Of a DNA stretch of 64,000 nucleotides, positions 3,234-63,100 are shown piece after piece. The DNA lies in the NCBI RefSeq assembly GCF_032854445.1, contig NC_088307.1:28488484-28552483 (forward strand), written 5' to 3'. Within the stretch, counting starts at the first letter, position 1; each line of letters opens with the position of its first letter. The notes beneath the pieces were generated by a model, which saw only the letters and a list, made by a program, of their open reading frames with translations, searched no databases and was not told the DNA's origin. The stretch is from Liolophura sinensis. Lineage: Eukaryota > Mollusca > Polyplacophora > Chitonida > Chitonidae. The position numbers and the translations under genes are program-made.

Positions 3234-4556
3234 TCACGTGACAGGTAATCCGTCCAGAGGACAATTCAAAGAGGAGTTTTCTAACCAAATGTCTATACAG
3301 TTGGCGTGGAACACGTGTTGGCACGGGAGGAACTTCCGCACCTGGCCCTGAACATAATTCTCCATGCATACCGCACACCGCTGACAACAGTCCGCCTCGC
3401 AAGCATTGTCCGTTTTGAAGCTGCTTAGAAGGTTTTTAGACACAGTTTTAGGGGCGACTTGTTCGTCAAGCCTCAACAGCAGGTCATAATCCTCGGGGCT
3501 TAAATCTCGGTGCTGCAGAGAGATTAACAAGTTGACCAGAGCTTGATCTTCGGCGAAGGTCGATGGGGCATTTTGACTGTGAAGGGCGTGGCGAGTTTCA
3601 GAGGCCACAGGCGGGGCAGGTTTTGCATCTTCAAACGCCCCCTCCCCCTTAATGTTTGGATTCCTTTTCCCTTTCTCTTTCTGGATTATCATTCTCTTTT
3701 CCTCGAGGTCTGATCTTCCACCTACCTTTTGTTTGGGTAAAAAGTGGATTGTCTGTGGTTTCAGCTCCATCCGTTTGTACACTCTATGATTCACGAACAG
3801 CTTTTTCCCATTGTTATTTAGCACGTTGTTGCAGTATTTGTCCTTCACTTGTTTATGCGCCCTTTTAATTTTTCGATGCCGATCGGCTCTAATGTCTTTA
3901 ACACCGATGGCAAGAAAACATTCCAGATCCTTCGCATTGGAAATTATATTCTCCACATGCATAAATTCCTCATTTACTTCATAACTGATCGCTTCAGAAT
4001 TAACCTTCCGGTCTTTTTCACTGGGTTTAAACTGAAACCGCGGGAACAAGCTGGGATTCATGCCGATTTCTTCCACAGGAACCTGCCTCCATTTTCTTTT
4101 GCCACTTGCATTGACTTTACGTAGCTTTCGCTTTTCCAGTTTCTGTTTTCTCTTTGAAACAATGTAATTCCCTACTGAAAACGTTTTCTTTGGTAACGCC
4201 TGGAAGTATTCGAACGGATCCGCATCTCTTTCCACGTTGGGCTCCACAAGGTTATCTCCCCTTGGCTGCACTGTTGACATTGCCAATTCAGAAATCCCAC
4301 TTTTTTTTCCGCCGATGCTAGTCTCCATAGTTTTCATCGCCTCTGTCGATTCGTCTTTCATATCACTGCTGTCACAATCGACAATAACATAACAATCTGA
4401 GGAAGCGACAGATATATCTTCAGTTTGACAGTTCACAGGAAATTCCGAAAACGAAAATGGCAGCACTAATTCCGCGACTGCCCACGAACGGTCCATGTTC
4501 ATTTTCCGCAATTTCTCGGCGCTTTCTTCGCTGTCATCGCAGCAAACGGTTGCCAT
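3234..4556 (-). CDS. RING-H2 zinc-finger protein, likely E3 ubiquitin ligase (intronless)
   Basis: An uninterrupted frame of 440 codons if it starts at the ATG at 4556 (MATVCCDDSEE...). An in-frame ATG at 4721 would add 55 residues, but they look like translated leader and would lie on the CCAAT box, so I prefer 4556. The C-terminal ~47 residues form a RING-H2 finger: C394, C397, C412, H414, H417, C420, C432 and D435, spaced C-x2-C-x14-C-x-H-x2-H-x2-C-x11-C-x2-D. The last ligand is Asp, in a CPLD context as in Rbx1/Roc1. Just before it (about 335-370) is a helical segment with LSPEDYDLLLRLDE, a kind of sequence I associate with several RING proteins. The middle is basic and probably disordered. 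No signal peptide or membrane segment is seen. E2 binding and ubiquitin transfer are expected from the family; the substrate is unknown. The gene is head-to-head with TSEN15. Confidence 0.85.
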   Translation of the reverse strand: MATVCCDDSEESAEKLRKMNMDRSWAVAELVLPFSFSEFPVNCQTEDISVASSDCYVIVDCDSSDMKDESTEAMKTMETSIGGKKSGISELAMSTVQPRGDNLVEPNVERDADPFEYFQALPKKTFSVGNYIVSKRKQKLEKRKLRKVNASGKRKWRQVPVEEIGMNPSLFPRFQFKPSEKDRKVNSEAISYEVNEEFMHVENIISNAKDLECFLAIGVKDIRADRHRKIKRAHKQVKDKYCNNVLNNNGKKLFVNHRVYKRMELKPQTIHFLPKQKVGGRSDLEEKRMIIQKEKGKRNPNIKGEGAFEDAKPAPPVASETRHALHSQNAPSTFAEDQALVNLLISLQHRDLSPEDYDLLLRLDEQVAPKTVSKNLLSSFKTDNACEADCCQRCAVCMENYVQGQVRKFLPCQHVFHANCIDIWLENSSLNCPLDGLPVT

Positions 4557-4877
4557 TATAATCGGAGAACTCTGCAGTATGTTCCCTGTCTGTATTACAC
4601 CAGCAGTTCTGGTAACAAATGTTACTCTACAGGGATATTTCAAAGCGGTCGCACTTGCACAACCAAGCGGTAACCCGGAGCTAAAAATAGAACCAAAACA
4701 AGACGTGATGTCATGCTGCATTCTGATTGGCCGCTAAAACCCGGTGTTTTACGCTCTCCGCGCAGTGGATGCGACAAAACCGGAGAAGGGAGAGCTGTAA
4801 ACACGTGGGAAACAGCGTTTCTGGCAGATTTCTCAAGAAGTATGGAGTTGTGAAAAAGAACACTGTGTGGTTGTGGA
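4557..4877. promoter_or_regulatory. Bidirectional promoter between the RING gene and TSEN15
   Basis: The two start codons (4556 minus, 4878 plus) are 321 bp apart and diverge. The interval holds an inverted CCAAT box in good NF-Y context ('ctgattggcc', core 4726-4730), a CRE-like 'tgatgtca' (4707-4714) and an E-box CACGTG (4802-4807). The E-box region is conserved in the decayed copy at 617-622. No TATA box is obvious. A 60-codon frame opens at ATG 4727 and overlaps the TSEN15 start in another frame. It would act as an upstream ORF if transcription starts before 4727. Confidence 0.65.
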
Positions 4878-4904: not shown

Positions 4905-7900
4905 GTTAGAAAAATTCTGGACCTACAAATAAGCGCGTCCCAATTTATTTTTTAGTCGTGAATTATAAGTGAGGTGACGTTTTCGGAAGTTGTATAACAA
5001 CATAACCAGTTAAAACAACAGGTTGATCGTGTGATTTATTGCTCTCACTTTACAATGCGTGACGTTTTTATGGATTTAAATAAGTTTCAGAAAGACTGCA
5101 GAATGCCTACAGCATGTCTTCTGAGGATTACTTAAGTGTTTACTTGTTTGTTTTTATTTGTTTCTTTTTGCTCTTTTTATTTGTTTCTTTTTATTTGTTA
5201 ACGTGTTACAAATTGTCTGGACCGTTTTTACTATACCTTTATAGGCCTGCGGTATATAAAGATATCTCCGAAAGACTCCAACTCCTTTTCTTATACTGGC
5301 TTAGCGTTGTTGGAGTCTCGACGCTCGTAATGTTAACGTCGTACTCAGCAAAGGTCCAGGCCGATTCTTTTTGTTACCGGTATCGAACAAGTATAGCGCA
5401 CAGAAAAGACACCAACATAAAGACCTACTTTCCGCACCCACTGCACCACCACCACCACCACACGTCCCTACTCGATTTAGAATAGATTTGTTATAGTCAT
5501 GAAGGCATACTTGGTATACGCTCCTCACGTGCTGGTGCAGTGGTGAGCAGTTTCGCGCGTCCTGGTTCGTAGTCAAGCAGTGGAAAATGGTGACATTTGC
5601 CAAGGAGCGTATACCGTGGAAGCCTTCATGGCTATAAGAAATCTGTTCTAAGTCGAGCAGGGACGTATATGGTGGTGGTGTGTTGAGTGGGGAAAGCAGG
5701 TGTATAGGCTAGTGTATTTTATTTTTGCGACATTTGTTCGATAACAAAGAGAATCAACCTGGACCTTGCGTTGAGTATGAAATTAACATTGTAAGCGACA
5801 AGACTCCACGACGCTAGGCCAGTATAAGAAAAGGAGTTGGGAGTCTTTCGAGGCTAATATAAAGGCTGTGTCAGGGTTCGACAATGGATTTTTAGATCCA
5901 AAATTGCTTGCTCCAGGTAACCACTTACTTGTCCCAACTGATCCTATCTATTTTATCCATTTTACTTTATATTTTTATTTAATCAGAGTCGCATACTGAT
6001 GCACATAACCAATTCAATTTCCCACTACATGTACAATTCGATATATGCGAGAAAAAAATGAAATGCATATTTGTTCTGAACTTTGATCTCCGATTGGCCA
6101 AAATGCACTTTCGGAACTTACATAGACCAATTAACAAATGTCTAACATTATAGCACAGATAAACAAACAGTGGCAGTAAACTTTACTTTGTACATTTATA
6201 TCACTACAAGAATTTCACTTTCAGTATGATTCAAGACTGGCCTCTTGTGGACAGTCGGACTGTCATCAGTGTCGAACCCTACGTGTGACATTGGATTATG
6301 GGTACTAATTAGCATTTCTGAATTTTGTTATGGATGAGTTACCTGATCTTCATTCCAGTACACAGAGATGTTGGCCTCAGGTGTGACAGATGAGGCGCAT
6401 ATTAAGAAGACATTTCAAGTGTACCTGGACTTGTGTGAAGGTAATATTGAAGCGACATAACTAGGACCTTCTGCCAAAAGAAATTCACGATTTTTGAGTC
6501 GGTTCAGCTGAAAACAAAAATGAGTTGCAGAGGACGTCTAACTTAACCTCCTGGGCTGATATTTTCTGAACAATTTCAAGCCAGAGATTCCTATGTGTAA
6601 CGACTTTAGTGAGTTGATGGTCGAAAGGGAGCCTTTGATAAAACTGAACATTTGATTGGTCATTCAAAGTGAGATACAGGTCAGTAGACATCAGGAAATC
6701 TCACCTTTGTGACAGTGACGTCTAAAATAACAGCACAACTTTTTCGCAGTCAGCAATATGTCTCTTTAAGCCCGAAGTGTGCCGTAAACGACAATCCGAA
6801 TAGCCAGTAGGGGCCTATAGCCGTGTACATTATAAATACATGTAAGATGTGGATGTCAGTGTTAGTGTACAGAGATTTACCATCTATCATAGAGGCCTAT
6901 AGTCGTGCGCTATATAAATACACACGAGATGTGGACATCATTGTTAGTGTACAGAAATTAACTATCTATCAAAGGGTCTCTAGTAGTGTACAATATAAAT
7001 ACACACGCGATGTGGACATCATTGTCAGTGTACAGAGATTTACTATCTATTACAGGGGCCTCTAGTCGTGTACAATATAAATACACACGCAATGTGGACG
7101 TCAGTGTTAGTGTACAGAGATTTACTATCTATCACAGGGGCCTATAGTCGTGTACAATATAAATACATACGCAATGTGAACATCAGTGTCAGTGTACAGT
7201 GATTTACTATCTATCATAGGGGCGTCTAGTCATGTACAATATAAATACACACAAGATGTGGACATCATTGTCAGTGTACAGTGATTTGCTATCTATCATT
7301 GGGACCTATAGTCGTGTACAATATAAATACACGCAAGATGTGGACATCAGTGTCAATGTACAGTGATTTACTATCTATTATAGGGGCCTCTAGTCGTGTA
7401 CAATATAAATGTGGACATCAGCGTCAGTGTATAGAGATTTACTATCTGTCATAGGGGCCTCTAAATACACATGATGTGGACGTCAGTGTTAGTGTACAGA
7501 GATTTACTATGTATCAAAGGGGCCTATAGTCGTGTACGATATAAATACACGCAAGATGTGGACATCATTGTTAGTGTACAGAGATTTACTATCTATCATA
7601 GGGGTCTATAGCCGTGTACAATATAAATACACGCACGATGTGGACATCAGTGTCAGTGTACAGTGATTTACTATCTATCATAGGGGCCTCTAGTCGTGTA
7701 CAATATAAATACACACGCGATGTGGAAATCAGCGTTATAGTGTTCCCTAGATTTACTATCTATCATAGGGGTCTATAGTCGTGTACAATATAAATACACG
7801 TGCAATGTAGACATCAGCGTCAGTTTATAGAGATTTACTATCTGTCATAGGGGCCTCTAAATACACACGATGTGGACGTCAGTGTTAGTGTACAGAGATT

Positions 7901-10900
7901 TACTATCTATCACAGGGGCCTCTAGTTGTGTACAATATAAATACACACGCGATGTGGACGTCAGTGTTAGTGTACAGAGATTTACTATCTATCATAGGGT
8001 TGATTTACTATCTATCAAAGGGGCCTATAGTCATGTAGGCCTACAATATAAATACATGCGCGATGCGGACGTCAGTGTTAGTATACAGAGATTTACTATC
8101 AATCATAGGGGCCTCTAGTCGTGTACAATATAAATACACACGTGATGTGGACATCAGTGTTGGTGTATAGAGATTTACTATCTATCACAGGGGGGCCTCC
8201 GTGGCTCAGTCAGTTAAAGCGCTAGCGCAGCGTAATGACCCAGGAGTCTCTCACCAATGCGGTCGCTGTGAGTACAAGTCCAGCCCATGCTGGCTTCCTC
8301 TCCGGCCGTACATGGGAAGGTCTGTCAGCAACCTGCGGATGGTCGTGGGTTTCCCCCGGGCTCTGCCCGGTTTCCACCCACCATAATGCTGGCCACCATC
8401 GTATAAGTGAAATATTCTTGAGTACGGCGTAAAACACCTATCAAAAAAAAAAAAAAAAAAAAAAATCTATCACAGGGGCCTCTAGTCATGTACAATATAA
8501 ATACACACGTGATGTGAATGTCAGTGTTAGTGTAAAAAGATTTACTATCTATCACAGGGGCCTCTAGTCGTGTACAATATAAATACACATGCGATGTGGA
8601 CGTCAGTGTACAGAGATTTATTATCTATCATAGGGGCCTTTGGTCATGTACAGTATAAATACACACGCGATGTGGACGTCAGTGTTAGTGTATGGAGATT
8701 TACTATCTATCACAGGGGCCTCTAGTCGTGTGCAATATAAATACACACACGATGTGGACGTCAGTGTTAGCGTACAGAGATTTACTATCTATCACAGGGG
8801 CCTCTAGTTGTGTACAATATAAATACACACGCGATGTGGACGTCAGTGTTAGTGTACAGAGATTTACTATCTATCATAGGGGCCTCTAGTCGGTTGCAAT
8901 ATAAATACACACGCGATGTGGACGTCAGTGTACAAAGATTTACTATCTATCATAGGGGCCTTTGGTCATGTACAATATAAATACACACGCGATGTGGACA
9001 TCAGTGTTAGTGTATGGAGATTTACTATCTATCACAGGGGCCTCTAGTCGTGTACAATATAAATACACACGCGATGTGGACGTCATTGTTAGTGTACAGA
9101 GATTTACTATCTATCATAGGGGCCTCTAGTCGTGTACAATATAAATACACGCAAGATGTGGACGTCAGTGTTAGTGTACAGAGATTTACTATCTATCATA
9201 GGGGCCTCTAGTCATGTACAATATAAATACACACGCGATGTGGACGTCATTGTTAGTGTACAGAGATTTACTATCTATCATAGGGGCCTATAGTCGTGTA
9301 CAATATAAATACACGCAAGATGTGGACGTCAGTGTTAGTGTACAGAGATTTACTATCTATCATAGGGGCCTTTGGTCATGTACATTAGAAATACACAGGT
9401 GATGTGGACATCAGTGTTAGTGTACAAAGATTTACTATCTATCATAGGGGCCTCTAGTTGTGTACGATATAAATACACACGCGATGTGGACGTCAGTGTT
9501 AGTGTACTGAGATTTACTATCTATCATAGGGGCCTCTAGTCGTGTACAATATAAATACACATGCGATGTGGACATCAGTGTCAGTGTACAGTGATTTACT
9601 ATCTATCATAGGGGCCTATAGTCGTGTACAATATAAATACACGCAAGATGTGGACGTCAGTGTTAGTGTACAGAGATTTACTATCTATCATAGGGGCCTC
9701 TAGTCATGTACAATATAAATACACACGCGATGTGGACGTCATTGTTAGTGTACAGAGATTTACTATCTATCATAGGGGCCTCTAGTCGTGTACAATATAA
9801 ATACACACACGATGTGGACATCAGTGTCAGTGTACAGAGATTTACTATCTATCATAGGGGCCTCTAGTCGTGTACAATATAAATACACACGCGATGTGGA
9901 CGTTAGTGTTAGTGTATTGAGATTTACTATCTATCATAGGGGCCTCTAGTCATGTACAATATAAATACACACTCGATGTGGACGTTAGTGTTAGTGTACT
10001 GAGATTTACTATCTATCACAGGGGCCTCTAGTCATGTACAGTATAAATACACACGCGATGTGGACATCAGTGTCAGTGTACAGGGATTTACTATTTATCA
10101 TAGGGGCCTCTAGTCGTGTACAATATAAATACACATGCGATGTGGACATCAGTGTCAGTGTACAGTGATTTACTATCTATTACAGCTGCCTCTAGTCGTG
10201 TACAATATAAATACACACGCGATGTGGACATCAGTGTCAGTGTACAGTGATTTACTATCTATTATAGGGGCCTCTAGTCGTGTACAATTTACTATATATC
10301 ATAGGGGCCTATATTTACTATATATCATAGGGGCCTATAGTCGTGTACAATATAAATACACACACGATGTGGACATCAGTGTCAGTGTACAGTGATTTAC
10401 TATCTATTACAGGGGCCTCTAGTCGTGTACAATATAAATACACACGCGATATGGACATCAGTGTCAGTGTACAGGGATTTACTATCTATCATAGGGGCCT
10501 CTAGTCGTGTACAATATAAATACACACGCGATGTGGACATCAGTGGCAGTGTACAGTGATTTACTATCTATTACAGGGGCCTCTAGTCGTGTACAATATA
10601 AATACACACGCGATGTGGACATCAGTGTCAGTGTACAGTGATTTACTATCCATTACAGGGGCCTCTAGTCGTGTACAATATAAATACACACGCGATGTGG
10701 ACATCAGTGTCAGTGTACAGTGATTTACTATATATCATAGGGGCCTATAGTCGTGTACAATATAAATACACACGCGATGTGGACATCAGTGTCAGTGTAC
10801 AGAGATTTACTATCTTTCAAAGGGGTCTATAGTTGTGTACAATATAAATACATGTATGAATTGAGTTTAGGGAAACAGATTGCGAGATTTACACCAGATT

Positions 10901-26939: not shown

Positions 26940-27480
26940 CTTCATCGATTTAATACTGCACGATCCACACGCATCACAATGCCATAACTTTCATCGTGAA
27001 CAATGTCAGCTGCATCGTTCAAGTCTCTATTACCAGCAAACATCACAATGCTGTCCTTTCATCGTGAACAATGTCAGCTCTAATGTTCAATCCACTATGA
27101 TCAGCAAACATCAAAATGCCGTCCTTTATTCGTGAACAATGTCAGCTCTAATGTTCAATCCACTATGATCAGCAAACATCACAATGCCGTCCTGTCATCG
27201 TGAATAATGTCAGCTCTAATGTTCAATCCACTATGATCAGCAAACATCACAATGCCATCCTTTCATCGTGAACAATGTCAGCTCTAATGTTCAATTCTCT
27301 ATTACCAGCAAACATCACAATGCCGTCCTTTCATCGTGAACAATGTCAGCTCTAATGTTCAATCCACTATGATCAGCAAACATCAAAATGCCGTCCTTTC
27401 ATCGTGAACAATATCAGCTCTAATGTTCAATCCACTATGATCAGCAAACATCACAATGCCGTCCTTTCATCGTAAACGAT
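26940..27480. repeat. 68-bp array derived from the receptor's final codons (3' UTR)
   Basis: Eight units. The positions equivalent to the stop codon are 26974, 27043, 27111, 27179, 27247, 27315, 27383 and the true stop 27451, spaced 68 bp (one 69). On the minus strand most copies still read ...VHDERTAL-stop, as in the real C-terminus ...VYDERTAL-stop; at least two read DERTAF. The array lies entirely downstream of the true stop in the presumed 3' UTR. Confidence 0.92.
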
Positions 27481-27609
27481 CTCGGCTTCATTGTTTATCA
27501 GCGAGTCCTTATCACCTGTAAGCACCTGAATACCACGGTTACGCTCCACAGCGATGGCTGCTGCACTTTCTGTTCTCATCCGATACTGCTTCTTCCGCGA
27601 CCGATCAAT
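27451..27609 (-). CDS. Receptor: terminal coding exon with PDZ-ligand-like end
   Basis: Acceptor 'tttatattttctgcag|ATTGATC', phase 0, TGA at 27451-27453. Begins basic ([18 protein letters not shown]) and ends [12 protein letters not shown]. The last three residues T-A-L fit the class I PDZ ligand S/T-x-hydrophobic. This 3' end is the founder of the 68-bp array. Confidence 0.9.
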   Translation of the reverse strand: MDRSRKKQYRMRTESAAAIAVERNRGIQVLTGDKDSLINNEAEIVYDERTAL

Positions 27610-30600: not shown

Positions 30601-33600
30601 ACCGGTGATTGGTTGTTGTTGTTGATAACAGCTTGAACCTGAATCTGGCTGCCACTAGGGGGTGCGTCTACAGGACAGGGGTGCGGGCGGCTGGGTGGGG
30701 GTGAGGGAGAAGGGGCGCAGGGCGTGGGGTCTCTAGTACTACTGAAACAAGGAAACCAGTGAAAACAGGTGTCATTCTCGTGAGTGAAACAAAACAGGTT
30801 ACACAAGATTTGCAAATGAATAAGAAACAAATTTGTGTGGTTCGGAAAAATAAACAGCACTTGTGATTCTGCTATATTGCCTTATGAGTAGAGATATGGT
30901 ACATGACCAAAGGTTAGAGCTCCACTGTTCCTAGAAAGGTGTTTTAACTTGTGCTTGTGAGCAGGAAGATAGAATAATTTCCTGCTGATAAACTAAAAAT
31001 TTTGAGGGGGGGGAGGTGAAATTTTGGGTGGTTTACGGTAACTGAGGGTAGCATTTTGTCAGGCAGATGTAACCTCCTGACCTAATGCCCCAGTGACACC
31101 AGTGAGACCAAAAATACTTGTGAAAGCCTGAAAAATATATATACTAAACAAAAAGTGAACTTAGCCTACAGTTAACATGTAGGAGAAGCATTGGTAATTT
31201 ACGGTAATAAATATTCACACAGAGCATCAGCGATGAAACATCCCCCTTGTGTCAATGTGCTTTGTATGCATGTAAAACTTCAGGTCAATCCATATAGTAC
31301 TTTATATTTAACTTTGATTTTAATACATACTACACTAAGTCACGAATCTGGTAATCCACAGTATTTAAATTAGAAAAAAAAAAAACAAAAGCAGGAGAAA
31401 TTGAAGGTCAGATGCATCAAACAGAGTACAACAATTCTACTAAATATCCTGAAGGCCAAAATCAATGAATGCATGAGCTTTGCATTAGAAAAAACAAAGA
31501 TGACTTTGAATCAGACTTGAAAAATAACTGTAGTCGGGAATTGTAATGCTTTATCTGTCAAAATTATTAAATTGGAGCATGTGATAGTCCGCTAGAGCCT
31601 ACATGTATGTTTAGCAAAGCTTCCATAGCACATCAATGTACACATCGCTCCCCAGAAGAGGCTTACTCTCTGATCAGCTCCAGGCTTTCAGCTTTGAGCA
31701 AGCAGTTTCATTAGTCAGTTGTTCCGTCGAATCTTTCAGCGTGTCAGTCAAAACTGGATTAAATGGGCAAGATTTTGCCAGAGCTGACCATCTGCCACTG
31801 CTTAACTGTGTTGGTGGTCTCCGATAACATGTATGTGCTAAATTGGTTCTGTTTATGAGTGAATCTCAAGTTCAGGTGGAGAAATAAAAAAAACACAGGT
31901 AAATGTACAACAGAGTTTAGTGCTCAACATGTCAGGGAGTGGGCTTTTTAGTCTGGTCAATTCATTTATTTGTTTGATTGGTGTTTAACGCTGTACTCAA
32001 GAATATTTCACTTATACCACAGTCGCCAGCATTATGGTGGGAGGAAACCGGGCTCTGAATCCCCTGACCATCTGTAGGTTGCTGAAAGACCTTCCCACAT
32101 ATGGCTGGAGCACGATCTGTGAGGCTTAAAGTTCCTGGGTCATTGTGGTGTGTGCTCAATTATCGATGCTTGTCTTTCAATAAGACTTAGACACACGAAA
32201 TGGAAGTTTAATCTCTGCCTTGGACAGGCAATTTCTACATCTTCCCTCCACAAAGAGCGGTCTGTGACGCTCTAGGAGCCCCGGAAACTGATGGCCATAG
32301 TACGTGTGAAATTCTTGAGTGTGAGGGTTAGGTAACTATCAGATAAATAAATCAAAATGTCACCTTTTTATCTGAAGATCACCGATGCTGTCCAGGTCTT
32401 CTTCTACTTTAGACATATCTGAAAATGACAAATACATCGAACATTAAAGATTTATGTGTGACATTACGTAAAGTAATTGTAATTTGTAGCTAGTCCATGA
32501 AAAAAGACATGGAGTGTAAATCTTCAACCTTTTCTATCTCAAACGCAGTTTTTACCATTTTTATTTCGGTGGAATTCATGCATACCATTATTATGAAAAA
32601 GACCAAGGTGATTTGTGTGCGTCACAAAGACAGTGCAAATCATTTATACACCTCACAGTTCTCTCAGAATGTTTGAAATTGTCGGTTGCACAAGCGGTTA
32701 AAAAAGCCGCAAAAACTAGGGCAGTTGAAACATTACACAATAATGAATGTTCCATTTATATGATGGAATTCCCAGCATGTTACTGCGATGTCTAGATGGC
32801 ATGTGTGTAAACAGGAAATACACATATGATCTGGCTGTTTGAGACTCAGTGCCCTATAGTTCTGAACACACTGATTTCCTTCCAATGGCAGCGAGCAGTC
32901 TGAACTTGTAAGGAGAATTCCCTTTAAACTTATAAATCTGAAATAATCTTGCATAAACAAAAATCAAGCACACAAAAACATTTATGTCAGGTAAATGTAT
33001 GTATAGCAAACACAAACAGGGCCTGCACAAAAAAGTATATCAGAGGCATGTTTGTTTTAATTTTCTTGTTGGAAATTCCTCTACTTAAATGTATACCAAT
33101 TCCATAGTAAATATATATTCACCCAGACCAAAATAAAACTTAAACCAACTGAAGAAAAAGGAAAAAAAGGAGTAAAACAAAATACACATAATGTCTCGCA
33201 CAACATTTTGAAACATTGCAAATCCATTTTATAGTACATATATCAACATGCAAGATATCAATTATGACCTAAAATAGGGTGGGATGATTGGGGGTTTCTC
33301 TGCCTGGTTTCCTCCTGTCATAATGCTGGCCACCATCATATAAGTGAAATATTCTTGAGTATGGTGCAAAACACCAAATAAATAAATAAATAAATAAATA
33401 AATCAAATAGGGTGTTACTATTACCTTACACAGTTGATACATTAAATTACAGTGTACTGTTATAAATACGCACCCAAAAATAACAAACACTAAAACAGCG
33501 CAGTGGTTTTAAACCATGCTCCATATTTTAGGTTCAACAAATTAAAAAACCATCTCATAATATCTTCATTATCAAAGCAAAAAAATCATCACTCAATAAT

Positions 33601-42600: not shown

Positions 42601-45600
42601 ATTTAATTCTATTTACATTAATAAACATTTTTCTGGTTTCAGTGAATATTTTTGTCAATCTTAATGTTGACTTTAAGGAATTAAGAAGTCAGAGCATGTA
42701 TAAATACCCTGTTCTCTTGTCCTGACTGTCTGTGCCGGACTATACGGACTCTGACCTGGTGTTACCTCAGTGGTGTAAGCTGCTACTCTGATCTCATACG
42801 TAGTGTAGGGCAGTAAGTCTCTGCAATACAAGTATTTATTTATTTATTTGATTGGTGTTTTACGCCATACTCAAGAATATTTCACTTATACGACGGTGGC
42901 CAGCATTACGGTGGGAGGAAACCGGGCACAGCCTGGGGGGAACCTGAAATAGAAGTAGTTATTATCCATTTTTTTGTTTGACTGGACTTTATGCCATAAA
43001 AATATTTCACTTATACGATTACAGCCAGCATTAGGGTGGGAGGAATACGAGCAGAGCCCAGGGAAAACCTGTGACCATCCACTGCCAGACTCTCCCATGG
43101 AAACAATAGGGCATTCAGAGAATCCCACCCGCTTGCCTGCTATAGCAGTTAACTTGACTATGGAATCAGAGAATCCCACCAGCCTGCCTGCTATAGCAGT
43201 TAACTTGACAATGGAATCAGAGAATCCCACCAGCTTGCCTGCTATAGCAGCTAACTTGACAATGGAATCAGAGTATCCCACCAGCCTGCCTGCTATAGCA
43301 GTTAACTTGACAATGGAATCAGAGTATCCCACCAGCTTGCCTGCTATAGCAGTTAACTTGACAATGGAATCAGAGAATCCCACCAGCCTGCCTGCTATAG
43401 CAGTTAACTTGACAATGGAATCAGAGTATCCCACCAGCTTGCCTGCTATAGCAGTTAACTTGACAATGGAATCAGAGTATCCCACCAGCTTGCCTGCTAT
43501 AGCAGTTAACTTGACAATGGAATCAGAGAATCCCACCAGCCTGCCTGCTATAGCAGTTAACTTGACAATGGAATCAGAGTATCCCACCAGCTTGCCTGCT
43601 ATAGCAGTTAACTTGACAATGGAATCAGAGTATCCCACCAGCTTGCCTGCTATAGCAGTTAACTTGACAATGGAATCAGAGTATCCCACCAGCTTGCCTG
43701 CTATAGCAGTTAACTTGACAATGGAATCAGAGAATCCCACCAGCCTGCCTGCTATAGCAGTTAACTTGACAATGGAATCAGAGTATCCCACCAGCTTGCC
43801 TGCTATAGCAGTTAACTTGACAATGGAATCAGAGAATCCCACCAGCCTGCCTGCTATAGCAGTTAACTTGACAATGGAATCAGAGTATCCCACCAGCCTG
43901 CCTGCTATAGCAGTTAACTTGACAATGGAATCAGAGAATCCCACCAGCTTGCCTGCTATAGCAGTTAACTTGACAATGGAATCAGAATAAATAAGATCTG
44001 TGAAGTGTTATGGTTGTAAAGACGTCATTGTTGTGAGTTCGTGCACAAAATTGAGGCAGTGGTCTTTAATACTCAAATTGTGTACTGCATGTGACAATCT
44101 GTGAACAAATCTGTGAACAATTCTGTGAACAAATCTGTGAACAATTCTGTGAACAAATCTGTGAACAATTCTGTGAACAATTCTGTGAATGGCTGAGCAA
44201 ATGTTGAGCTATAATTATACAAAAACTTCATGGTGGGGATGTTCGAGTATCAACTGGTGGGGAGTTGTCTTTGACATGCATATCGCTTCCCATGACTGGT
44301 TATCCGTGTACTATGGATGGCCGCTGTAGCCCTCTGATTGGCTATCCGTGTACCATGGATGGCCAATGTAGCCCTCTGATTGGCTATCCGTGTACTATGG
44401 ATGGCCAATGTAGCCCTCTGATTGGCTATCCGTGTACCATGGATGGCCACTGTAGCCCTCTGATTGGCTATCCGTGTACCATGGATGGCCACTGTAGCCC
44501 TCTGATTGGCTATTCGTGTACTATGGATGGCCACTGTAGCCCTCTGATTGGTTATCCGTGTACTATGGATGGCCACTGTAGCCCTCTGATTGGCTATCCG
44601 TGTACTATGGATGGCCACTGTAGCCCTCTGATTGGCTATCCATGTACCATGGATGGCCACTGTAGCCCTCTGATTGGCTATCCGTGTACCATGGATGGCC
44701 AATGTAGCCCTCTGATTGGCTATCCGTGTACCATGGATGGCCACTGTAGCCCTCTGATTGGCTATCCGTGTACCATGGATGGCCACTGTAGCCCTCTGAT
44801 TGGCTATTCGTGTACTATGGATGGCCACTGTAGCCCTCTGATTGGTTATCCGTGTACTATGGATGGCCACTGTAGCCCTCTGATTGGGTGAGCAAAATAC
44901 TCAGCTGACAACAGTCACTGTCTGCGTGGATGATTTAAACATTCCGTCACAGCATAGGAAGGCTCATGCATGGCTTCCAAAGAGCTCACATGTAGAGACA
45001 CATGAATGCAAAACTTCAACCAGCTCAATACATAATGAAATGAAATTGTGAATTTGGTAATTCACGGTAACTACTATGCACAAATAGCGTCAGCGATGGA
45101 ACATCTCCCTTGGGCTTTATAAGCATGTAAACCTTCAGGTTAAAGCATGCTGTATTTTTTTTAAATACCACCCCTCACACTATGTTTAACACTGATTCCA
45201 ATACACAGCACACTCAGGAATTTGGTAATTTATGGTATTTAATATGCACACACCACATCAACGATGGAATATCCCTCTGTGCTCAACAAATGAGGTACTT
45301 TTATAGATGCACCTTTTGCATTTTGTTTAACACTGATGTTATTACACAATTTGTTTAACACTGATGTTATTACACAATTTGTTTAACACTGATTTTATTA
45401 CACAATTTGTTTAACATTGATTTTATTACAAAATAACTAAGTCAGGAATTCAGTAATTTACAGTATTAAATACATGTACAACCGCATCAATGATGGAACA
45501 CCCCCCTCGTCTTGTGCCCTACATGTCTGCAATCTCTCAGCTCAATATGTGCAGCATTTTTTTATAAGATACAGTGTACCTCCCCCTCCCCAACCCTCTT

Positions 45601-48166: not shown

Positions 48167-51100
48167 TATATGGATTATGCAATTTTTCGCAATTCTAAAT
48201 TTACCGCGGACATTATTAGGATAGGCATTCATGCTGTATCGGAAATTGAGGGATACCTTCCGCAACCTCACATAAACTACCAGGCAAAAGAAAGGTTTCA
48301 ACCACTTCTTGAGCCCATAAAACAAAAACAAAGGCAGATATAAGAATTAAGAAGATTGGTTTATAAACAGGAATCATTGTGAAATATTCTCTCAAAAAGA
48401 CTTTAAAATATTGGCATTCAATTGGCCACAAAACACAATGAAAGAGACAAGGGGTCAGAAGAAAAAATTACACAAATATAAAGTTAACTGGCAAGTGCAT
48501 GTAAAGTCACAGTATCCACAGAAATGAAGGACTAGTCATCAGTAGCGAGTGTGGCCACCCTGGGCATCAATGCAAGCAAGCACACGCCTCCGCATTGACG
48601 TCAGTCGCCGGATGACGTCAACAGGGATAACGTTCCATAGGTTTAACAGAGCTTGCTCAAGTTCCTGTTGGTTAGTCAAACGGCGGTCAAGGTGATCCCA
48701 GAGATGCTCAATGGGGTTCATGTCTGGTGAGTTGGCTGGCCAGGTCAACATGATGACGTTTGCGGTCTCGAGGTAGTCGGTAACAATGCGGGCAATGTGA
48801 GGTCTTGCGTTGTCGTGTTGCAAGATCGATCCTCTTGGCTGTTGTTGGAGGAAAGGAATGACGACAGGTCTCAGTACCTCATCAACGTATCGCTGGCCAG
48901 TCAGATTACCTCGCACAATAACCAGCTGCGTCTTCATTTGGTCACAAATCCCTCCCCAAACCATGACGCCTCCGCCTCCAAACGGATAAACCTCTCTTAT
49001 GCAGTTTGGCGCGAGACGCTCGCCTCTTCGTCAGTAAACTCGAACTCTGCCGATGCAGCCATACACTAAGTCCTGCTTAGAATCAAACCCGGAACCGCGC
49101 TTTTACTTTTTTTATGACAAAAAATACGGTGAAACCTTTCTTTTGCCTGGTAGTTTATTATAGGTTGCAGGTACCACATGAAGTGTACATGCTTTGTGTG
49201 GGATGGATGACAGGTATGCTCACATTTTCCCCCGACATAGTGAACGGTGGGCTTTGAAGTCATTGTGACAAAAGTGTACACTGTACATGAATACAAATAC
49301 TTCTGTAAATAAATCAGAAACTATTCTTCTTGATTTTTATTTGTTTTGTCAAGTAGTTCGTAAAGTTAAATAATATTCGGCAAACTGATGTCCTCTCCGT
49401 GAGCCTTCTTGCCCTCCCTATTTTTAAGAATGGGCAGATTGACGTCTATCTCCTGCCGAGGTAGACACGTGGCCAGTGACAGGGAGCTTCTTTCGTGATC
49501 GGGCACATTTGCTTTACCCTCGCAAGCATTTTTCAAAAGCTTTATTCACATGAAAGGCAGCATTGTTCATTGATGAAATGGTATTTCTTCAAATTCCAAT
49601 CACACACAGGACCTCATACAAAAGATGTTATGGAGACGAGCGATCAGTAAAATTCGAGACACGCAGTGTGGAGAGTTTGCTGTACATCATGCTACATAAC
49701 AATCAACTCAGTGAAAACATAACAGTTTGTTCAACCAAGTAACTAAAAGGTGAGAAAGCTAAATTTAAAAAAAGAAAACGAAAACTGATTTTTATCCTGA
49801 TTTGGTATTTGATTACTGCTCTGTGAACGTATCCTGTAGAGAAGATTAACATGGTTAATACAGCAGGGAGGTATCCTGCAAGTTCTGATCAGTGAAGCGT
49901 GCGGTTGTTGTAGTGGACATACCCTGCTGTGCTAGCCACACCCATCGTTTAAGTGTTCATTCCTTTTAACCGAACCCAAAGCAAAAGATTTATGGGGACA
50001 GTCTCCTACAAATCTGGAGGAGACAACAGGGAATAATCTGAAATGTCCTCTTAAGGAGGAACAGTTAAGTTTGTTAGGACTGTTTGCAAATCTGGAGACC
50101 GAGATATGAAGGAATAATTAGAAATGCCCCTTAAAAGGAATGACTGGCTTTATTACAAAGAAAATAATATGTGCTTCTGGTATTGTGAAGGTTAGTGGTC
50201 TTAGGGTACAGCCACACAAAGTCTCTTCACCATGTGCTTGAAATTAATTGATTAACAGTTCCAAAACCCCAAGACCAATGAAAACAAGAATGTGGGAAAT
50301 TTCCTCTCTCACAAATGGTTTAAATGCAAGTATTGTGGAACCTCAACATCGAATGACATGCACTTGTTCAAATTAAATATAAAAGGAGCTAACTTTGTTT
50401 TTTTACTTTTCATAACTTAGAAATCCAGGCAAATTTTTCTCACCTTGGTCAGTCTTCTGTCTGAAGGTCACTTGGTACTGTCTGATCTGACCTCTTGTTT
50501 CCTTAGGAATTTCCCACCTAAGTCTGACCTGGTAGGTACCCACAGATATAACCTCAAAGTATCGCGGGACAGAGGGAGCTATGAACGATATCAACATTTA
50601 GCGAATAAGAGACACACAAGATGGTTTATTGATCTAAGTCACCTCTAAAATTTCTGTTCTTTGGAAACAAATCCATTCCAATGCATCTGATAAGCATAAA
50701 AAGTCTAAACATCAATTCAATTAATTTATTTGTTTGTTTATTTATTTGCTTTGAGTTATATGCCTTACTCAAGAATATTTCACTTATATGACGACAGCCA
50801 GCAAGATGGTGGGAGAAAACCGGGCAGAGACCAAGGGAAGGGAATACACAACTATCAGCAGGTGGCTGACAGACCTTGAGAGGTGCGACCGGAGAGGAAG
50901 CCAGCAAGAACATAGTGTAAAGAGTTTCTTACCTGATTCAAACGTTGTTGCAGACAGAGCTGAACTCACAGTTCCCTCCCCTGCCAAGTTCTTTGCTGCC
51001 ATGACAACCACGTAAGAGCTGGCCGGCTTTAGGCCATCCAGTTCTACATAGGTGGAGTTTGAGGGAATATCATCTCTGTACACCACAAAGTCTGTGGAAA

Positions 51101-54100
51101 CACTGGGGAACAGCATGGAACACTTGTAAATTTGCTATCAGCTTAACAGCTTTCATTCAAAGTACACTCAAATGGCACTATGCTCATCAAGTCTTCCTAA
51201 ATTCGGGGTTACAAGATAAATGTTCCAGTCATATTTCAAATTTTGATTCATAATTTTTCCCATGATCTGACAGAAGAAAATCAGCAACTTGTTGCAGTGT
51301 ACAAAAAACAAAAAAAAAACAAAAAAACTGGGAGAAATACCTTGATTCCAGTTCTTAAACCATTCACTCATGGAATATGAAGTTTTGACAGACTATTAAT
51401 TTATCTGACTGTTGTTTAACACCTTACTCAAGAATTTTTCACTTGTGGCCAGTTTTATGGGTGCATGGAGCAGCCTTAAGTCTTTGGAGTAGATCACCAA
51501 CTTTTGGCAAATTACCCGTGAACTTCCTCATGTGTGATATATATCATATTGATGAAAAGCAAGTTATCTCCAGCGACCTTCATGTAAGCCTGCACAAAAC
51601 AGTATCATCTCCCACATCTGACCAACATTCAACTCTCAAAGTCAATGGAAGTAATTCATGGAATCCTTGAAAGTTCTCCATCAAAGAACAGGACTGACAC
51701 CGCACATTGGATAATTCAGGGTCTTGACAGCATAATTTCATCCAAAGATGAAATTAAAAAACTTAGTGACAATAACCAGAGTCTTACCTTTCTCTGTAGC
51801 GTAGCACGTAGCTGGTTACATCAGCGTAAGGAGACTGCGGCACTTCAGACCAGCTAACATTGAGGGAACTCATTGACACGGGGATCACAGATTCCAATCT
51901 AGGGGGGATAGGGGGACCTAGAAGAAATTAAAAAGCGCATACATTACTGTGTGAGCCCACATGCAGCAAATGAAACTAAATACAGCTAAAATGACTAAAA
52001 TGAGGCAAAAGCGTTAACTTTACGCAACTTTGTTACGGTGACTCTTAAACTCTGTATGGTGACTCAAACTCTGGAACAGTGACTCTTAAACTCTGTAATG
52101 GTGACTCTTAAACTCTGCAATGGTGATTCTTAACTCTGAAACGGTTACTCTTTAACTCTGTAACACTGATTCTTAAACTCTGGAATGGTGACTCTTAAAC
52201 TCTTTAACTGTGACTCTTAAACTCTGTAACAGTGATTCTTAAACTCTGAAATGGTGACCCTTAAACTCTGGGACAGTGACTCTTAAACTCTGTAATGGTA
52301 ACTACAGAAAAATAAAGCTTTTAATTCAGAGAAAAGTACAACAGAGTTTTATGATTTCTGAAAGTTTCTTCACATGACTCCAGTCCAATCAGACAGGAGC
52401 ATCTTTAGTGTCACAGATTTTCACTATAATCAGACAGCAGTGTGTTTAGTGGACACAGATTTTCACTATAATCAGACAGCAGCGCGTTTAGTGAACACAG
52501 ATTTTCACTATAATCAGACAGGAGCGTCTTTAGTGTCACAGATTTTCACTATAATCAGACAGCAGTGTGTTTAGTGGATGCAGATTTTCACTATAATCAG
52601 ACAGTAGCGTGTTTAGTGGACACAGATTTTCACTCCAACATATATATAATGCTTTCCCTTGATGCATCAGCTACAAAATAGTCATTTTATGGCCTACTGC
52701 GCCAATCTTGGTTGTCTACATCCATATGCCTGACTGCTGTCATACCATGTAGAAGCAAAAATTCTTCATCAACCTATCTGAGTTCTAAATTCCACTTCCA
52801 AGCACTGTGCAAAGCTTTCCGAAAACAAGGTGGAAGAGACTTGAAGAGTTGAAGAGTCCAGAAGACTCTGCTAAATCAAGAATCCGTATTTCGAGCCAGC
52901 CTTCAGTCAACATGCCTTCAGATATCTGCTAGGACGACTAGTAATATACTGAGGTAGGCACAAACATCAGCTATATTACACCCATCTTCATTTTATCAAT
53001 TCAGACATTTCGCGTAAGTTTAGAACTTTTCAAGTGACACATTCTGCTTGAATCTGATTGGTTCATCAACCTTACCACGAAAGAGTTTTACATGTATGTG
53101 AAGTATGATTAAATTATTATCAGAAAAACATAAATCTTGTCATCAAGAGTGTCATTTTAAGGCCTTAAATTTTATAGCGCATTATTCCAAGTCAGACTTA
53201 AGATGAAACTCAGTACCTGTAGCTGGCCTTGACCTTACCATAGAAAACAACTTCCTCTGACATCACATCCTGTCCTGCTTCATTCTTAGCCACACAAGAA
53301 TATGTTCCTGTCAGGAAAAGCAGAATTCTGGATGTTTGAGCAAAAACACTTTGATTTTGTAGCAAGGCACACGACCACAAAACTTCAGTTCAATACATAT
53401 AATACTTATTTATTTATTTATTTGATTGGTGTTTTACGCCGTACTCAAGAATATTTCACTTATACGACGACGGCCAGCATTATGGTGGGAGGAAACCGGG
53501 CAGAGCCCAGGGGAAACCCACGACCATCCGCAGGTTGCTGGCAGACCTTCCCACGTACGGCCGGAGAGGAAGCCAGCATGAGCTGGACTTGAACTCACAG
53601 CGACCGCATTGGTGAGAGGCTCCTGGGTCATTACGCTGCGCTAGCGCGCTAACCGGCTGAGCCACGGAGGCCCCTACATATAATACTAAAGTGATGAATT
53701 TTGTAACTGACTGTAATTAATACCCGTAACACAGAGCACCCCGGATGGATCATACCCCTTGTGTTATTGTGTCTTACTTGTTTACAAAACCTCAGCTCAA
53801 TATATGCAGTAGTTTATGTGAAACTTTAATTGTAATACACTAGATGTAAGTCATGAAGTTTGCACTTTACACTATTTAATATGCACACAATACATCCACA
53901 TAAACAATGACACGTTCCCCTCATGTGATCATGCTCTACGGAACTTACGCAGAGCCAGAGACCAATACACGGAGCGCTTCTTACAACACGTGTACCACCG
54001 CTAAATTTCTTTTAACAATTAATGCTTTTTCTCTTACTGGACACAGACATTCATGTTCGGGGCATGACATTAGCTACGTGTGAACTTTGTACTTTGAACA

Positions 54101-57100: not shown

Positions 57101-60100
57101 GTCATTGGGAACAAGGTGTCTCGTAGGTATAGGGTTTGTGTCCTGAGAAAAGAAGAAGAGATTTTCACTTCAATAAGGTGATACTAATCTTTTCTGTGTC
57201 TTACAGGTGAGCCAACACTAAAAAATCCAAAAATGAAATAAAAACAAAACTGAAAACCTGCCCTAATGTTTCTTATGGTTTGTATGACTTTCAAGGCTTT
57301 ACAATATGTCTTTAAAGGGATACAGACTGGCTGGTGTGGAAGGTAAGCATGTCCAGGCTATGTCTTGGTGATTCTGATTGGCTGATGGGAGAAGTAGGCA
57401 TGTCCAGGCTATGTTTTGTTGATTCTGATTGGCTGGTGGGAGAGGTAGGCATGTCCTGGCTATGTCTTGTTGATTCTGATTGGCTGCTGGGAGAGGTAGG
57501 CATGTCCACGCTATACTAGCCTAAGCTGAATTTTAGATATGGCAGATTTATTCAAGCATGATTTGGCTTGATTTGATGATCAAAAAACACAGGGGGCCTC
57601 CGTGGCTCAGTTGGTTAACGCACTAGCACACCGTAATGACCCAAAAGCCTCCCACCAAGGCCGTCACTGTGAGTATTCAACACCTCTTGTATTAACATCA
57701 TCTCACATGTAGGCTACAACATTTCCAGCACAAATTTAAAAGCAATATTTATCTGACTTCAATTGTTAATGATATCTGAGGCACACACAGATGTGGTAGT
57801 AAAGTGAGTTTTTCAAAACTTACATTGTATGTCCAGTAGATTGTGGGTTGAGGGACACCAGTCACTTCACAGCGAAGGGTCAGTCCTTGACCAAGAGTGA
57901 CCATACGACTGGACGGAGGAACCACAAACGATGGAGGTACTACACAGAGAGAAAACCACAATGGGCTGACAAACATGTATATGTAAATTTTATGAATTTT
58001 AAATATACCCAATATTTAAAACTTTTACAAGCATCAATAATTTAAGATCATGTAGGGTGAGAAAAGCACTGAAAGAGGAAAACTGGTACTAAATGAAGAC
58101 CACTAGTACAGAAAGGGGAAGGCTGGCACTAAATGAAGACCACCAGTACAGAATGGGGAAAACTGTCACTAAATGAAGACCACCAGTACGGAATGGGGGA
58201 AAACTGGCACTAAATAAAGACCAGCAGCATGGAATGGGGGTAACTGGCACTAAATGAAAACCACCAGTACATAATGGGGAAGGCTGGCACTAAATGAAGA
58301 CCACCAGCATGGAATGGGGAAAACTGGCACTAAATGAAGATCACCAGTACAGAATGGGGAAGGCTGGCACTAAATGAAGACCACCACTACGAAATGGGGG
58401 AAACTGACACTAAATGAAGACCACCAGCATGGAATGGGGGAAACTGGCACTAAATGACGACCACCAGTACGGAATGGGGAAAACTGGGACTAAACAGAGA
58501 AAAACTATGGTAGGAGGAGTGCAGACAGAATCTGGATAAATGGAACCATCTCAAAATGCAAGCTTTTAAACTTTACAAAGCATAGATGGACAATGAAGGT
58601 GATGTACACACAAGAGCATGTGATTTGGTTAGATGTGTTAAAATGAGAAAAGTTTTCCTAAGACACACGTTAAACAGCCTACCTATAACCTCCACTTTCC
58701 CTTGTCCGTCCTAAGACACACATTATCCAGCGTACCTATAACCTCCATCTCTCCCGTCTGTCCTAAGACACACGTTAACCAACGTGCATATAACCTCCAC
58801 CTTTACCGTGTCTGTCCTAAGACACACGTTAACCAGCGTACCTATAACCTCCACTTTTCCCGTGTCTGTCCTAAGACACACGTTAACCAGCGTACCTATA
58901 ACCTCCACTTTTCCCGTGTCTGTCCTAAGACACACGTTAACCAGCGTACCTATAACCTCCACCTTTCCCGTGTCTGTCCTAAGACACACGTTAACCAGCG
59001 TACCTATAACCTCCACCTTTCCCGTGTCTGTCCTAAGACACACATTAACCAGCGTACCTATAACCTCCACCTTTCCCCTGTCTGTCCTAAGACACACATT
59101 AACCAAAGTACCTATAACCTCCACCTTTCCCGTGTCTGTCCTAAGACACACATTAACCAGTGTACCTATAACCTCCACATTTCCCGTCTGTCCTAAGACA
59201 CACATTAACCAAAGTACCTATAACCTCCACCTTTCCCCTGTCTGTCCTAAGACACACATTAACCAAAGTACCTATAACCTCCACCTTCCACCTTTCCCGT
59301 GCCTGTCCTAAGACACATGTTAACCAGTGTACCTATAACCTCCACCTTCCACCTTTCCCGTGCCTGTCCTAAGACACACATTAACCAATGTGCCTATAAC
59401 CTCCACCTTTACCTTGTCTGTCCTAAGCCACACATTAACCAGCGTACCTATAACCTCCACATTTCCCCTGTCTGTCCTAAGACACACATTAACCAGCGTA
59501 CCTATAACCTCCACCTTTACCGTGTCTGTCCTAAGACACACATTAACCAGCGTACCTATAACCTCCACATTTACCGTGTCTGTCCTAAGACACACATTAA
59601 CTAGTGTACCTATAACCTCCCCATTTCCCCTGTCTGTCCTAAGACACACATTAAACAGCGTACCTATAACCTCCACCTTTCCTTTGTCTGTCCTAAGACA
59701 CACATTAACCAGCGTACCTATAACCTCCACATTTCCTGTGTCTGTCCTAAGACACACATTAAACAGCGTACCTATAACCTCCACCTTTCCTTTGTCTGTC
59801 CTAAGACACACATTAACCAGCATACCTATAACCTCCACATTTCCTGTGTCTGTCCTAAGACACACATTAACCAGCGTACCTATAACCTCCACCTTTCCTT
59901 TGTCTGTCCTAAGACACACATTAACCAGCGTACCTATAACCTCCACCTTTCCCCTGTCTGTCCTAAGACACACATTAACCAGCGTACCTATAACCTCCAC
60001 ATTTCCCGTGTCTGTCCTAAGACACACATTAACCAGCGTACCTATAACCTCCACATTTCCCCTGTCTGTCCTAAGACACACATTAAACAGCGTACCTATA

Positions 60101-63100
60101 ACCTCCACCTTTCCTGTGTCTGTCCTAAGACACACATTAACCAGCGTACCTATAACCGCCACCTTTCCCCTGTCTGTCCTAAGACACACATTAACCAGCG
60201 TACCTATAACCTCCACATTTCCCGTCTGTCCTAAGACACACATTAACCAAAGTACCTATAACCGCCACCTTTCCCCTGTCTGTCCGAAGACACACATTAA
60301 CCAAAGTACCTATAACCTCCACATTTTCCCTTTCTGTCCTAAGACACACATTAACCAGCGTACCTATAACCTCCATCTCTCCCGTGTCCATCTTCAATCC
60401 GGCAGTGTTCTTAGCCTTGCATGTGTAGTTCCCAGAATCCATCACTGTGACCTCCAGAAGGTGAAGGTTGTTGTTTACAACTCTCAACTGGTCAGATTCT
60501 TGAATCTCCACCCCGTCTGCTCATAATAAGACATGGGTAGCAGCTTTAGTACGTAAGTGTACAGTTCTAAACAGGCCTTTATGCACATCCATGCTTATTA
60601 CCTCTTCAATAGGTATTATACATTTTCTTGAAAAACTAAATATTCACCAATTATAGATAAATGAAATGAGTGATTTTTATTTACTTTCAGCAATGATAGG
60701 CTTCATTATTCAATAAATGTAGTTTAGTCCAACTGATAAGGAGCTTAAAAAAAGGTCCATATCAAAGCCTTCTTGTGAATCCTACAATACGTGAAAGTGA
60801 ATGAATTTGTAAAAAAACATAATAAAAAGTAACAAAAATTCAATGAAAAAATTTATGTAGGGCAGTAAGGATTTGGATTTTTTTGGAATCTCTGACAGTG
60901 TGTATAAGTGAAACACAGTTTTGAGTTATGCATCAGATCGCCATGAACGCTGTAATTGTGCAGTCTTTTTTCATTGCAGGTACAAGCATCATTAAGTCTC
61001 ACCATGGAGCCAGGTAACCTCTGGCACTGGGTCACCACTGACCAAACAAGGAAGTGTGACCTCTGACATGACCCCTAGGTTAGCAATCACATGACCAATC
61101 TTTGACAAAATGGCAGGAGGCACTGTGGAAAATAACATACACTTATTTTATAGGCTGGTTGATATAGCATGGAAATGGCACAGGCTTGTTTCATTTTGTA
61201 ATAATGTTGGTAACTGTTTTTCATGAGAAAGTGGTCGATACTGTAAAATATGACATGTGAACTGAGCCTTCATTATGAGCATTACAGGCATGTTTGGTTT
61301 ACATTATGAGCATTACAGGCATGTTTGGTTTACATTATGAGCATTACAGGCATGTTTGGTTTACATTATGAGCATTACAGGCATGTTTGGTTTACATCTG
61401 ATATATACTGCTCATACTTTTTCTACATGAAAAATTTATTTATCATGTGATGAACAACTGGATAATGGATTGTCCTATTATAAACTATGAGCTATACAGC
61501 GTACATCTTACTGGCTCAATAAAAGATCAAACAATTACACATGTAGTGCGTGTGTAAAAAATGGTATGGAAGAGGATTTTGGTACCAACCATTAGATGCT
61601 GATTCTAGACTCAGGTTGAATATATCCAAAATCCACAAAAACATGGGAAATGTCTTAAGCCTGTATTAAGTCTGAGAAAGTGTCTAAGTTGAAATTTTAC
61701 ATGTCAGATGCAGTATTACAATTCAGTATCAAATTATTATCAGCCAGTGTCGCTGTTTTACAACAGTCAGTGTCACATTGTTACAGTAGTCAGTGTCACT
61801 GTTTTACAGCAGTCAGTGTCACATTGTTACAGTAGTCAGTGTCACTGTTTTACAGCAGTCAGTGTCGCTGTTTTACAGCAGTCAGTGTCACCGTGTTACA
61901 GCAGTTAGTGTCAATGTTACAGCAGTCAGTGTCGCAGTTTTACAACAGTCAGTGTTGCAGTTTTACAGCAGTCAGTGTCGCTATTTTACAGAAGTCAGTG
62001 TTGCAGTTTTACAGCAGTCAGTGTCACAGTGTTACAGCAGTTAGTGTCAATGTTACAGCAGTCAGTGTCGCAGTTTTACAACAGTCAGTGTCACAGTTTT
62101 ACAGCAGTCAGTGTCGCAGTTTTACACCGTCATGTCACTGTTTTATAACAGTCAGTGTTGCAGTTTTACAGCAGTTAGTGTCGCTGTTTTACAGCAGTCA
62201 GTGTGGCTGTTTTACAGCAGTCAGTGTTGCAGTTTTACAGCAGTCAGTGTCGCTGTTTTACAGCAGTCAGTGTCGCTGTTTGACAGCAGTCAGCTTTGCA
62301 GTTTTACAGCAGTTAGTGTCACAGTGTTAAAGCAGTTAGTGTCACAGTGTTACAGCAGTCAGTGTCGCAGTTTTACAGCAGTCACTGTTGCTGTTTTACA
62401 GCAGCCAGTGTTGCAGTTTTACAGCAGCCAGTGTCGCTGTTTTACAGCAGTTAGCGTCGCAGTTTTACAGCAGTCAGTGTTGCTGTTTTACAACAGTCAG
62501 TGTCACAGTTTTACAGTAGTCAGTGTTGCAGTTTTACAGCAGTCAGTGTCTCTGTTTTACAGCAGTTCGTGTCATAGTTTTACACTGTCAAACTATGACA
62601 AGAGTCTGTATCAAAAATTCAAAAATCAGTGCAAAATTTGACAAGTTTGTTTCAAAGTGTTTCAGGGAGACATAGGTCAAAGTTTTAGTGTCAAAGTTTT
62701 ACAAGTCTATGTCAAATCATTACTTGCTCTACTGTCAATGTTTTACAAGTCCGTGTCAAATCACTACTTGCACTACTGTCAATGTTTTACAAGTTCATGT
62801 CAAATCATTACTTGCTCTACTGTCAATGTTTTACAAGTCCATGTTAAATCATTACTTGCTTTACTGTCAATGTTTTACAAGTTCATGTCAAATCATTACT
62901 TGCTCTACTGTCAATGTTTTACAAGTCTGTGTCAAATCATTACTTGCTCTACTGTCAATGTTTTACAAGTCTGTGTCAAATCATTACTTGCTCTACTGTC
63001 AATGTTTTACAACTGTCAGTATCAAGGTTTCACAACCATTTGCATCAAAGTATTACAGCAGTCAGTGTTGAAGTCTTACAACCGTTTGCGTCAAAGTATT

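Follow-up and report, generated by a model that had tools for sequence, protein, structure and literature searches.

A 54-bp minisatellite built from an exon end and its 5′ splice site in an Ig/FN3 gene of Liolophura sinensis, probably a tolerated "mirage"

The window analysed here is a stretch of 64,000 bp from contig NC_088307.1 of Liolophura sinensis (GCF_032854445.1, positions 28,488,484 to 28,552,483), and it carries an animal-type Ig/FN3 cell-surface gene whose start lies outside it. With exon edges placed by hand and exons joined by hand, E1-E17 (61122 to 37268) are open through three Ig and about five fibronectin type III domains. Pfam finds I-set in three stretches and fn3 in five, and chains of titin, contactin, Robo, DSCAM, LAR-type phosphatase, sidekick and DCC are among the PDB matches (60 of 346 listed). 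A hydrophobic stretch that follows these domains is, as read by eye, a predicted transmembrane helix. As drawn, E18 and E19 join in frame neither to E17 nor to each other, which means that the model lacks exons or borders in that part; the phases of E19 and E20 agree. A second gene, at 3237-4733 on the minus strand, appears as a 499-aa open reading frame with a C-terminal RING finger. Inside an intron, an open reading frame at 48539-49030 (minus strand) matches a DDE_3 endonuclease domain, and we take it to be probably a fragment of a Tc1/mariner-like transposase. Rfam and tRNA scans of the 64-kb window gave no matches. The features around E2 are listed below, with a slash marking an exon/intron junction or a copy of one.

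61003..61122, minus strand: exon E1, the first half of the Ig domain that E2 completes (gene model)
60364..60516, minus strand: exon E2 (153 bp), coding for the second half of an I-set Ig domain; array unit 0 is its terminal 25 bp (60364-60388)
60362..60363, minus strand: GT of the real 5′ splice site, TAG/GTACGC (junction count, ungapped protein alignment)
58656..60388, minus strand: 54-bp minisatellite across the E2 donor, with 32 junctions, one real and 31 copies (TRF, junction count, BLAST)
60310..60363, minus strand: unit 1, followed by an in-frame decoy donor, TAG/GTACTT, which would add 18 aa
60256..60309, minus strand: unit 2, followed by an in-frame decoy donor, TAG/GTACTT, which would add 36 aa in total
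60204..60255, minus strand: unit 3, 52 bp, followed by the first out-of-frame decoy donor
58736..58787, minus strand: unit 30, distal, 52 bp, the most exon-like copy (22/22 exonic bp)
57824..57939, minus strand: exon E3, which encodes the following Ig domain's first half and is the downstream splice partner of E2 (gene model, protein alignment)

Exon E2 follows the acceptor gagcag/ACGGGG, an alternative acceptor being possible 3 bp upstream (60519), and it ends in TTATAG/GTACGC at 60364. The array, for which TRF gives 32.0 copies, 91% matches and a score of 2696, starts on the minus strand 25 bp inside this Ig-domain exon and crosses its 5′ splice site, so that a unit consists of about 25 bp of exon and about 29 bp of intron. 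The junction motif GGTTATA[G/T] occurs 32 times on the minus strand, once as the exon end at 60364 and 31 times as an intronic copy. GT is retained in 29 of the 31 copies and replaced by GC in units 18 and 29. The real donor 9-mer, TAG/GTACGC, is common to 19 copies, and the remaining GT donors read GTACTT (five copies), GTACAC (three), GTATGC (one) and GTAGGC (one). Most units hold both an acceptor-like CTTAG/G and a donor-like TATAG/GT site. At its far end the array closes with a partial intronic piece (...CTTAGGA), beyond which the sequence is unique. An earlier, sequence-only reading had placed the array at 58665..60395 and described a ladder of near-identical donor sites; the array is real, although each end was off by less than 10 bp, and the description suits the 19 copies with the real 9-mer but not the two in-frame donors, both TAG/GTACTT. 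Its account of the first three extra donors proved exact: those at 60310 and 60256 lie 54 and 108 bp on with the frame open, and that at 60204 shifts phase, because unit 3 is 52 bp long (offset +160, frame +1).

How might an exon end have come to be repeated within its own intron? When a 60-bp query covering the E2 donor region was compared with the window by BLAST (E up to 0.05), 31 other matches were obtained, all of which extend 6 bp or more beyond the boundary in both directions; the best has 98% identity over 50 bp (E 7.9e-22). The homology between exon and array is therefore far beyond chance, and the proposed origin of the array from the exon end plus its 5′ splice site is borne out. 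Aligned to exon bases 60364-60388, the units match at up to 22 of 22 exonic positions. That maximum, over the final 22 bases of the exon, belongs to unit 30; each of the remaining 30 units has between 15 and 20 matching positions, unit 1 having 17. Unit 30 shares an exact stretch of 31 bp with the real junction, 22 bp of it exonic, and nine other units share an exact 41 bp, the limit set by the intron-side stretch compared, with 12 bp exonic. The idea that exon-proximal units are the oldest thus finds no support, since the best exon match is distal. From these alignments we take unit 30 to be closest to the founding copy, although its likeness to the exon may instead reflect a later conversion from the exon. 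Adjacent units are barely more alike than the average pair (identity 0.923 vs 0.906), which indicates mixing of the array by turnover. Escape of edge units from homogenisation is a trait of amphioxus mirages, discussed below; here the edge units (1-3 and 30-31) depart from the consensus at 4-7 positions and most inner units at 0-4, but inner units 19 and 20 (11 differences each, with a 7-bp insertion) and 22 (five) are divergent too.

The direction of copying can also be judged from the protein. The product of E2 and E3, with 60364 joined to 57939, aligns with ROBO1 (5o5g_A) over 104 residues with zero gaps across the junction (query residues 24-127, chain residues 220-323). Two titin alignments have 3 extra residues near the E2-E3 junction, and no insert near 18 residues occurs in the significant matches among the five shown as alignments (of 253 matches). 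The ungapped ROBO1 alignment indicates that the end of E2 is an ordinary Ig-domain end, older than the array rather than derived from it. By this comparison, 60364 is likely to be the ancestral donor, giving the canonical linker.

What would follow if a copy were used as a splice site? We joined each of the 32 donors to E3 and read to the end of E17. Only 60364, 60310 and 60256 leave the frame open to that point. For the remaining 29 of the 31 decoys the reading ends at a premature stop, which lies inside the extension in 28 cases and downstream in that of the frame-shifted 60204. With donor weights of a metazoan consensus, not trained on L. sinensis, the real donor scores 2.5 and the two in-frame decoys, whose GTACTT has no counterpart to the +5 G of GTACGC, score 0.54; units 10 and 31 reach 2.83 and 3.09. 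The real E2 donor is, moreover, weak next to several other donors of the same gene. Its predicted RNA accessibility (0.018) ranks 12 of 32, against a decoy mean of 0.018 and median of 0.012, and RNA structure is therefore rejected as a reason why it would win. The fold of 60190-60430 showed no extra stability over shuffled sequences (z −0.71; 47 of 200 shuffles as stable). TTAGGA occurs 30 times in the array and TAGG is absent from E2; given the binding preferences of hnRNP A1, these copies might conceivably act as a silencer. Because neither donor sequence nor accessibility singles out 60364, we infer that its position beside the real exon decides.

We consider that the array is a "mirage", a tolerated intronic minisatellite grown from a duplicated exon/intron boundary, and we would put the probability of this reading, including the use of 60364 and the neutrality it implies, at roughly 0.85. 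In the founding step, some 52-54 bp, comprising the last 22-25 bp of the exon and the first 29 bp or so of the intron, would have been duplicated in tandem, and enlargement to 31 extra copies would have followed by repeat turnover, presumably through unequal exchange or slippage. The spliceosome would take the exon-proximal donor, defined jointly with E2's real upstream acceptor, and would excise the array whole as part of the intron; on the rare occasions when a decoy was used, the usual outcome would be a premature stop followed by message decay. The array would thus probably leave the protein unchanged. The donor itself is no explanation, however, in that 19 of the 31 decoys share its 9-mer and two, those of units 10 and 31, have slightly higher scores. 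With 31 decoy junctions, 19 of them carrying the real 9-mer, directly after the real site, the array is a known oddity on a large scale and provides a natural test of exon-proximal donor choice by the spliceosome.

The known cases come from amphioxus, where globin genes contain minisatellite-like tandem copies of exon/intron boundaries (PMC3087553). As cited in that paper, the "mirages" of Adh3 have units of 10-72 bp and show length and somatic instability, and the globin units measure 150-160 bp; the Adh3 data and globin RT-PCR are said to suggest that regular splicing is undisturbed, although cryptic sites might serve. A second paper adds PGBD5, whose splicing it predicted rather than tested, and cites troponin C; one PGBD5 annotation, which lacks EST or mRNA support and was omitted by the authors, assigns the greater part of two array units to a predicted exon (57 residues) (PMC3902484). 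Like these cases as they are described there (Adh3, the globins BflGb6 and BflGb9, PGBD5 and troponin C), the present array consists of tandem boundary copies, many with splice signals. It also has the anatomical marks of a mirage, a unit that spans an exon/intron boundary and is of minisatellite size (54 bp), within the range cited for Adh3 (PMC3087553). The extra junctions number 31 here, compared with 6 and 3 repeat units in BflGb6 haplotypes and 2-7 in PGBD5. Long intronic arrays of minisatellite units are likewise found in intron 1 of earthworm metallothionein; a unit containing an exon end, as is present here, does not figure in the portion of that account we draw on (PMC12783039).

Could the copies instead serve the gene? 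The sequence-only reading had offered a length-variable linker generator beside a splicing risk that the gene tolerates, and the second suits the frame consequences better, decoys leading mostly to a stop. In the first, donors 60364, 60310 and 60256 would add 0, 18 or 36 residues between the Ig domains, tuned by copy number. The first two decoys are indeed in frame and open, but both lack the +5 G and score below the real donor, 29 of the 31 decoys stop, the extensions would introduce one or two additional Cys, and copies beyond the third would, under the current phase, add only stop-leading sites. The linker through 60364 has no extra residues against ROBO1 and at most 3 against titin (in the five of 253 matches shown as alignments). 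Regulated alternative tandem donors yield open isoforms from donors of comparable strength; here 2 of 31 decoys are open, and both are below the real donor. We therefore regard a linker generator as unsupported and very unlikely, and give equally little credence to its fuller form, in which some transcripts would be spliced through 60310 or 60256 (+18 or +36 residues), the other donors would act as a frame-shifting sink, and array length would tune the receptor between individuals or somatic cells. It is just as improbable that the ladder tunes gene output as a quality or dosage switch through decay of decoy-spliced, premature-stop transcripts, since the stops from 29 of 31 decoys, which would suit such a switch, are what frame-shifting decoys mostly give by default.

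A further proposal, slightly less improbable and still unlikely, is that the AG (CTTAG, TATAG) and GT of the units make the array a nursery whose pieces become exons or move the intron border. Such sites are present in most units, and mirages were proposed as a route to intron gain by tandem duplication in the amphioxus globins (PMC3087553). The tandem duplication with AG/GT also resembles intron gain by tandem genomic duplication, as in the Rogers model cited in that paper and in potato RdRp (PMC4974935); unlike in the model as presented there, the duplication lies at an existing intron border and a new intron is not evident. The piece from acceptor to donor in a 54-bp unit is, however, 29 bp long, which is not divisible by 3, and such a nursery would be a long-term potential rather than a present function. 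Least probable of all is an assembly artefact that inflated a short repeat. Tandem arrays mis-assemble readily, and the PGBD5 copies differ between two lancelet sequence versions, 2 vs 7 and 3 vs 6 (PMC3902484), but substitutions and indels set the units here apart from one another (mean pairwise identity 0.906), so that the array is not one read copied; the doubt is confined to the exact copy count.

The mirage reading gains a wider setting from a second array that crosses a boundary of another kind.

27451..27609, minus strand: predicted terminal coding exon E20, ending ...DERTAL and a stop, its link to the Ig/FN3 gene being probable
26972..27477, minus strand: second boundary array, 68 bp x 7.4, starting inside this predicted last coding exon (TRF, BLAST)

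The 68-bp units, translated by eye, encode variants of the C-terminal codons of E20 together with the stop, the commonest form being LNIRADIVHDERTAL followed by the stop, and six of seven BLAST matches cross the predicted stop of E20. This array and E20 probably belong to the same gene as the E2 array. In having an array across a predicted stop codon, the window differs from the amphioxus cases considered above. In both boundary arrays the original copy stays upstream in its working place, so that the copies can be ignored. A BLAST search of 40 predicted exon edges (E up to 0.05) gave boundary-spanning copies at just two of them, the donor of E2 and the stop region of E20, and mirage formation at every exon is thereby rejected.

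Tandem arrays are abundant at this locus. After merging 117 TRF rows by hand, with 11 short rows omitted (3167, 5139, 24655, 30360, 33376, 36307, 36939, 46479, 51303, 55733 and 55749), we obtained 34 arrays that fill 22,376 of the 64,000 bp; they make up 31.8% of 26,900-61,400. When an edge was counted as covered if an array extends at least 8 bp on either side of it, arrays covered 2 of 40 edges, compared with 12.0 expected (P 0.0008, 5000 random placements), and for E1-E17 alone 1 of 34 compared with 11.3 (0 of 5000 placements as low). Targeting of arrays to exon edges is rejected, because fewer edges are covered than expected, and a simple reading of the avoidance is purifying selection against arrays in exons. 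The stop-codon array, and the fact that arrays otherwise avoid predicted exon edges, suggest that growth across a boundary is not confined to splice sites and represents the survivors of general minisatellite growth. The mirage structure is known from lancelets; the E2 array is a sizeable further case, and the array at a stop codon is the less expected addition.

Three other repeats of the window may be recorded. A 51-bp x 17 array at 43115-43986 (minus strand) lies inside a 373-aa open frame within an intron of the gene model; 82-bp arrays extend over about 4 kb at 6808-10852, with higher-order periods of 164 and 246 bp; and a dispersed repeat, whose translation has a recurring ISEIFL, is present on both strands, for example at 53434-53640, 42889-43113, 31965-32159 and 8226-8429.
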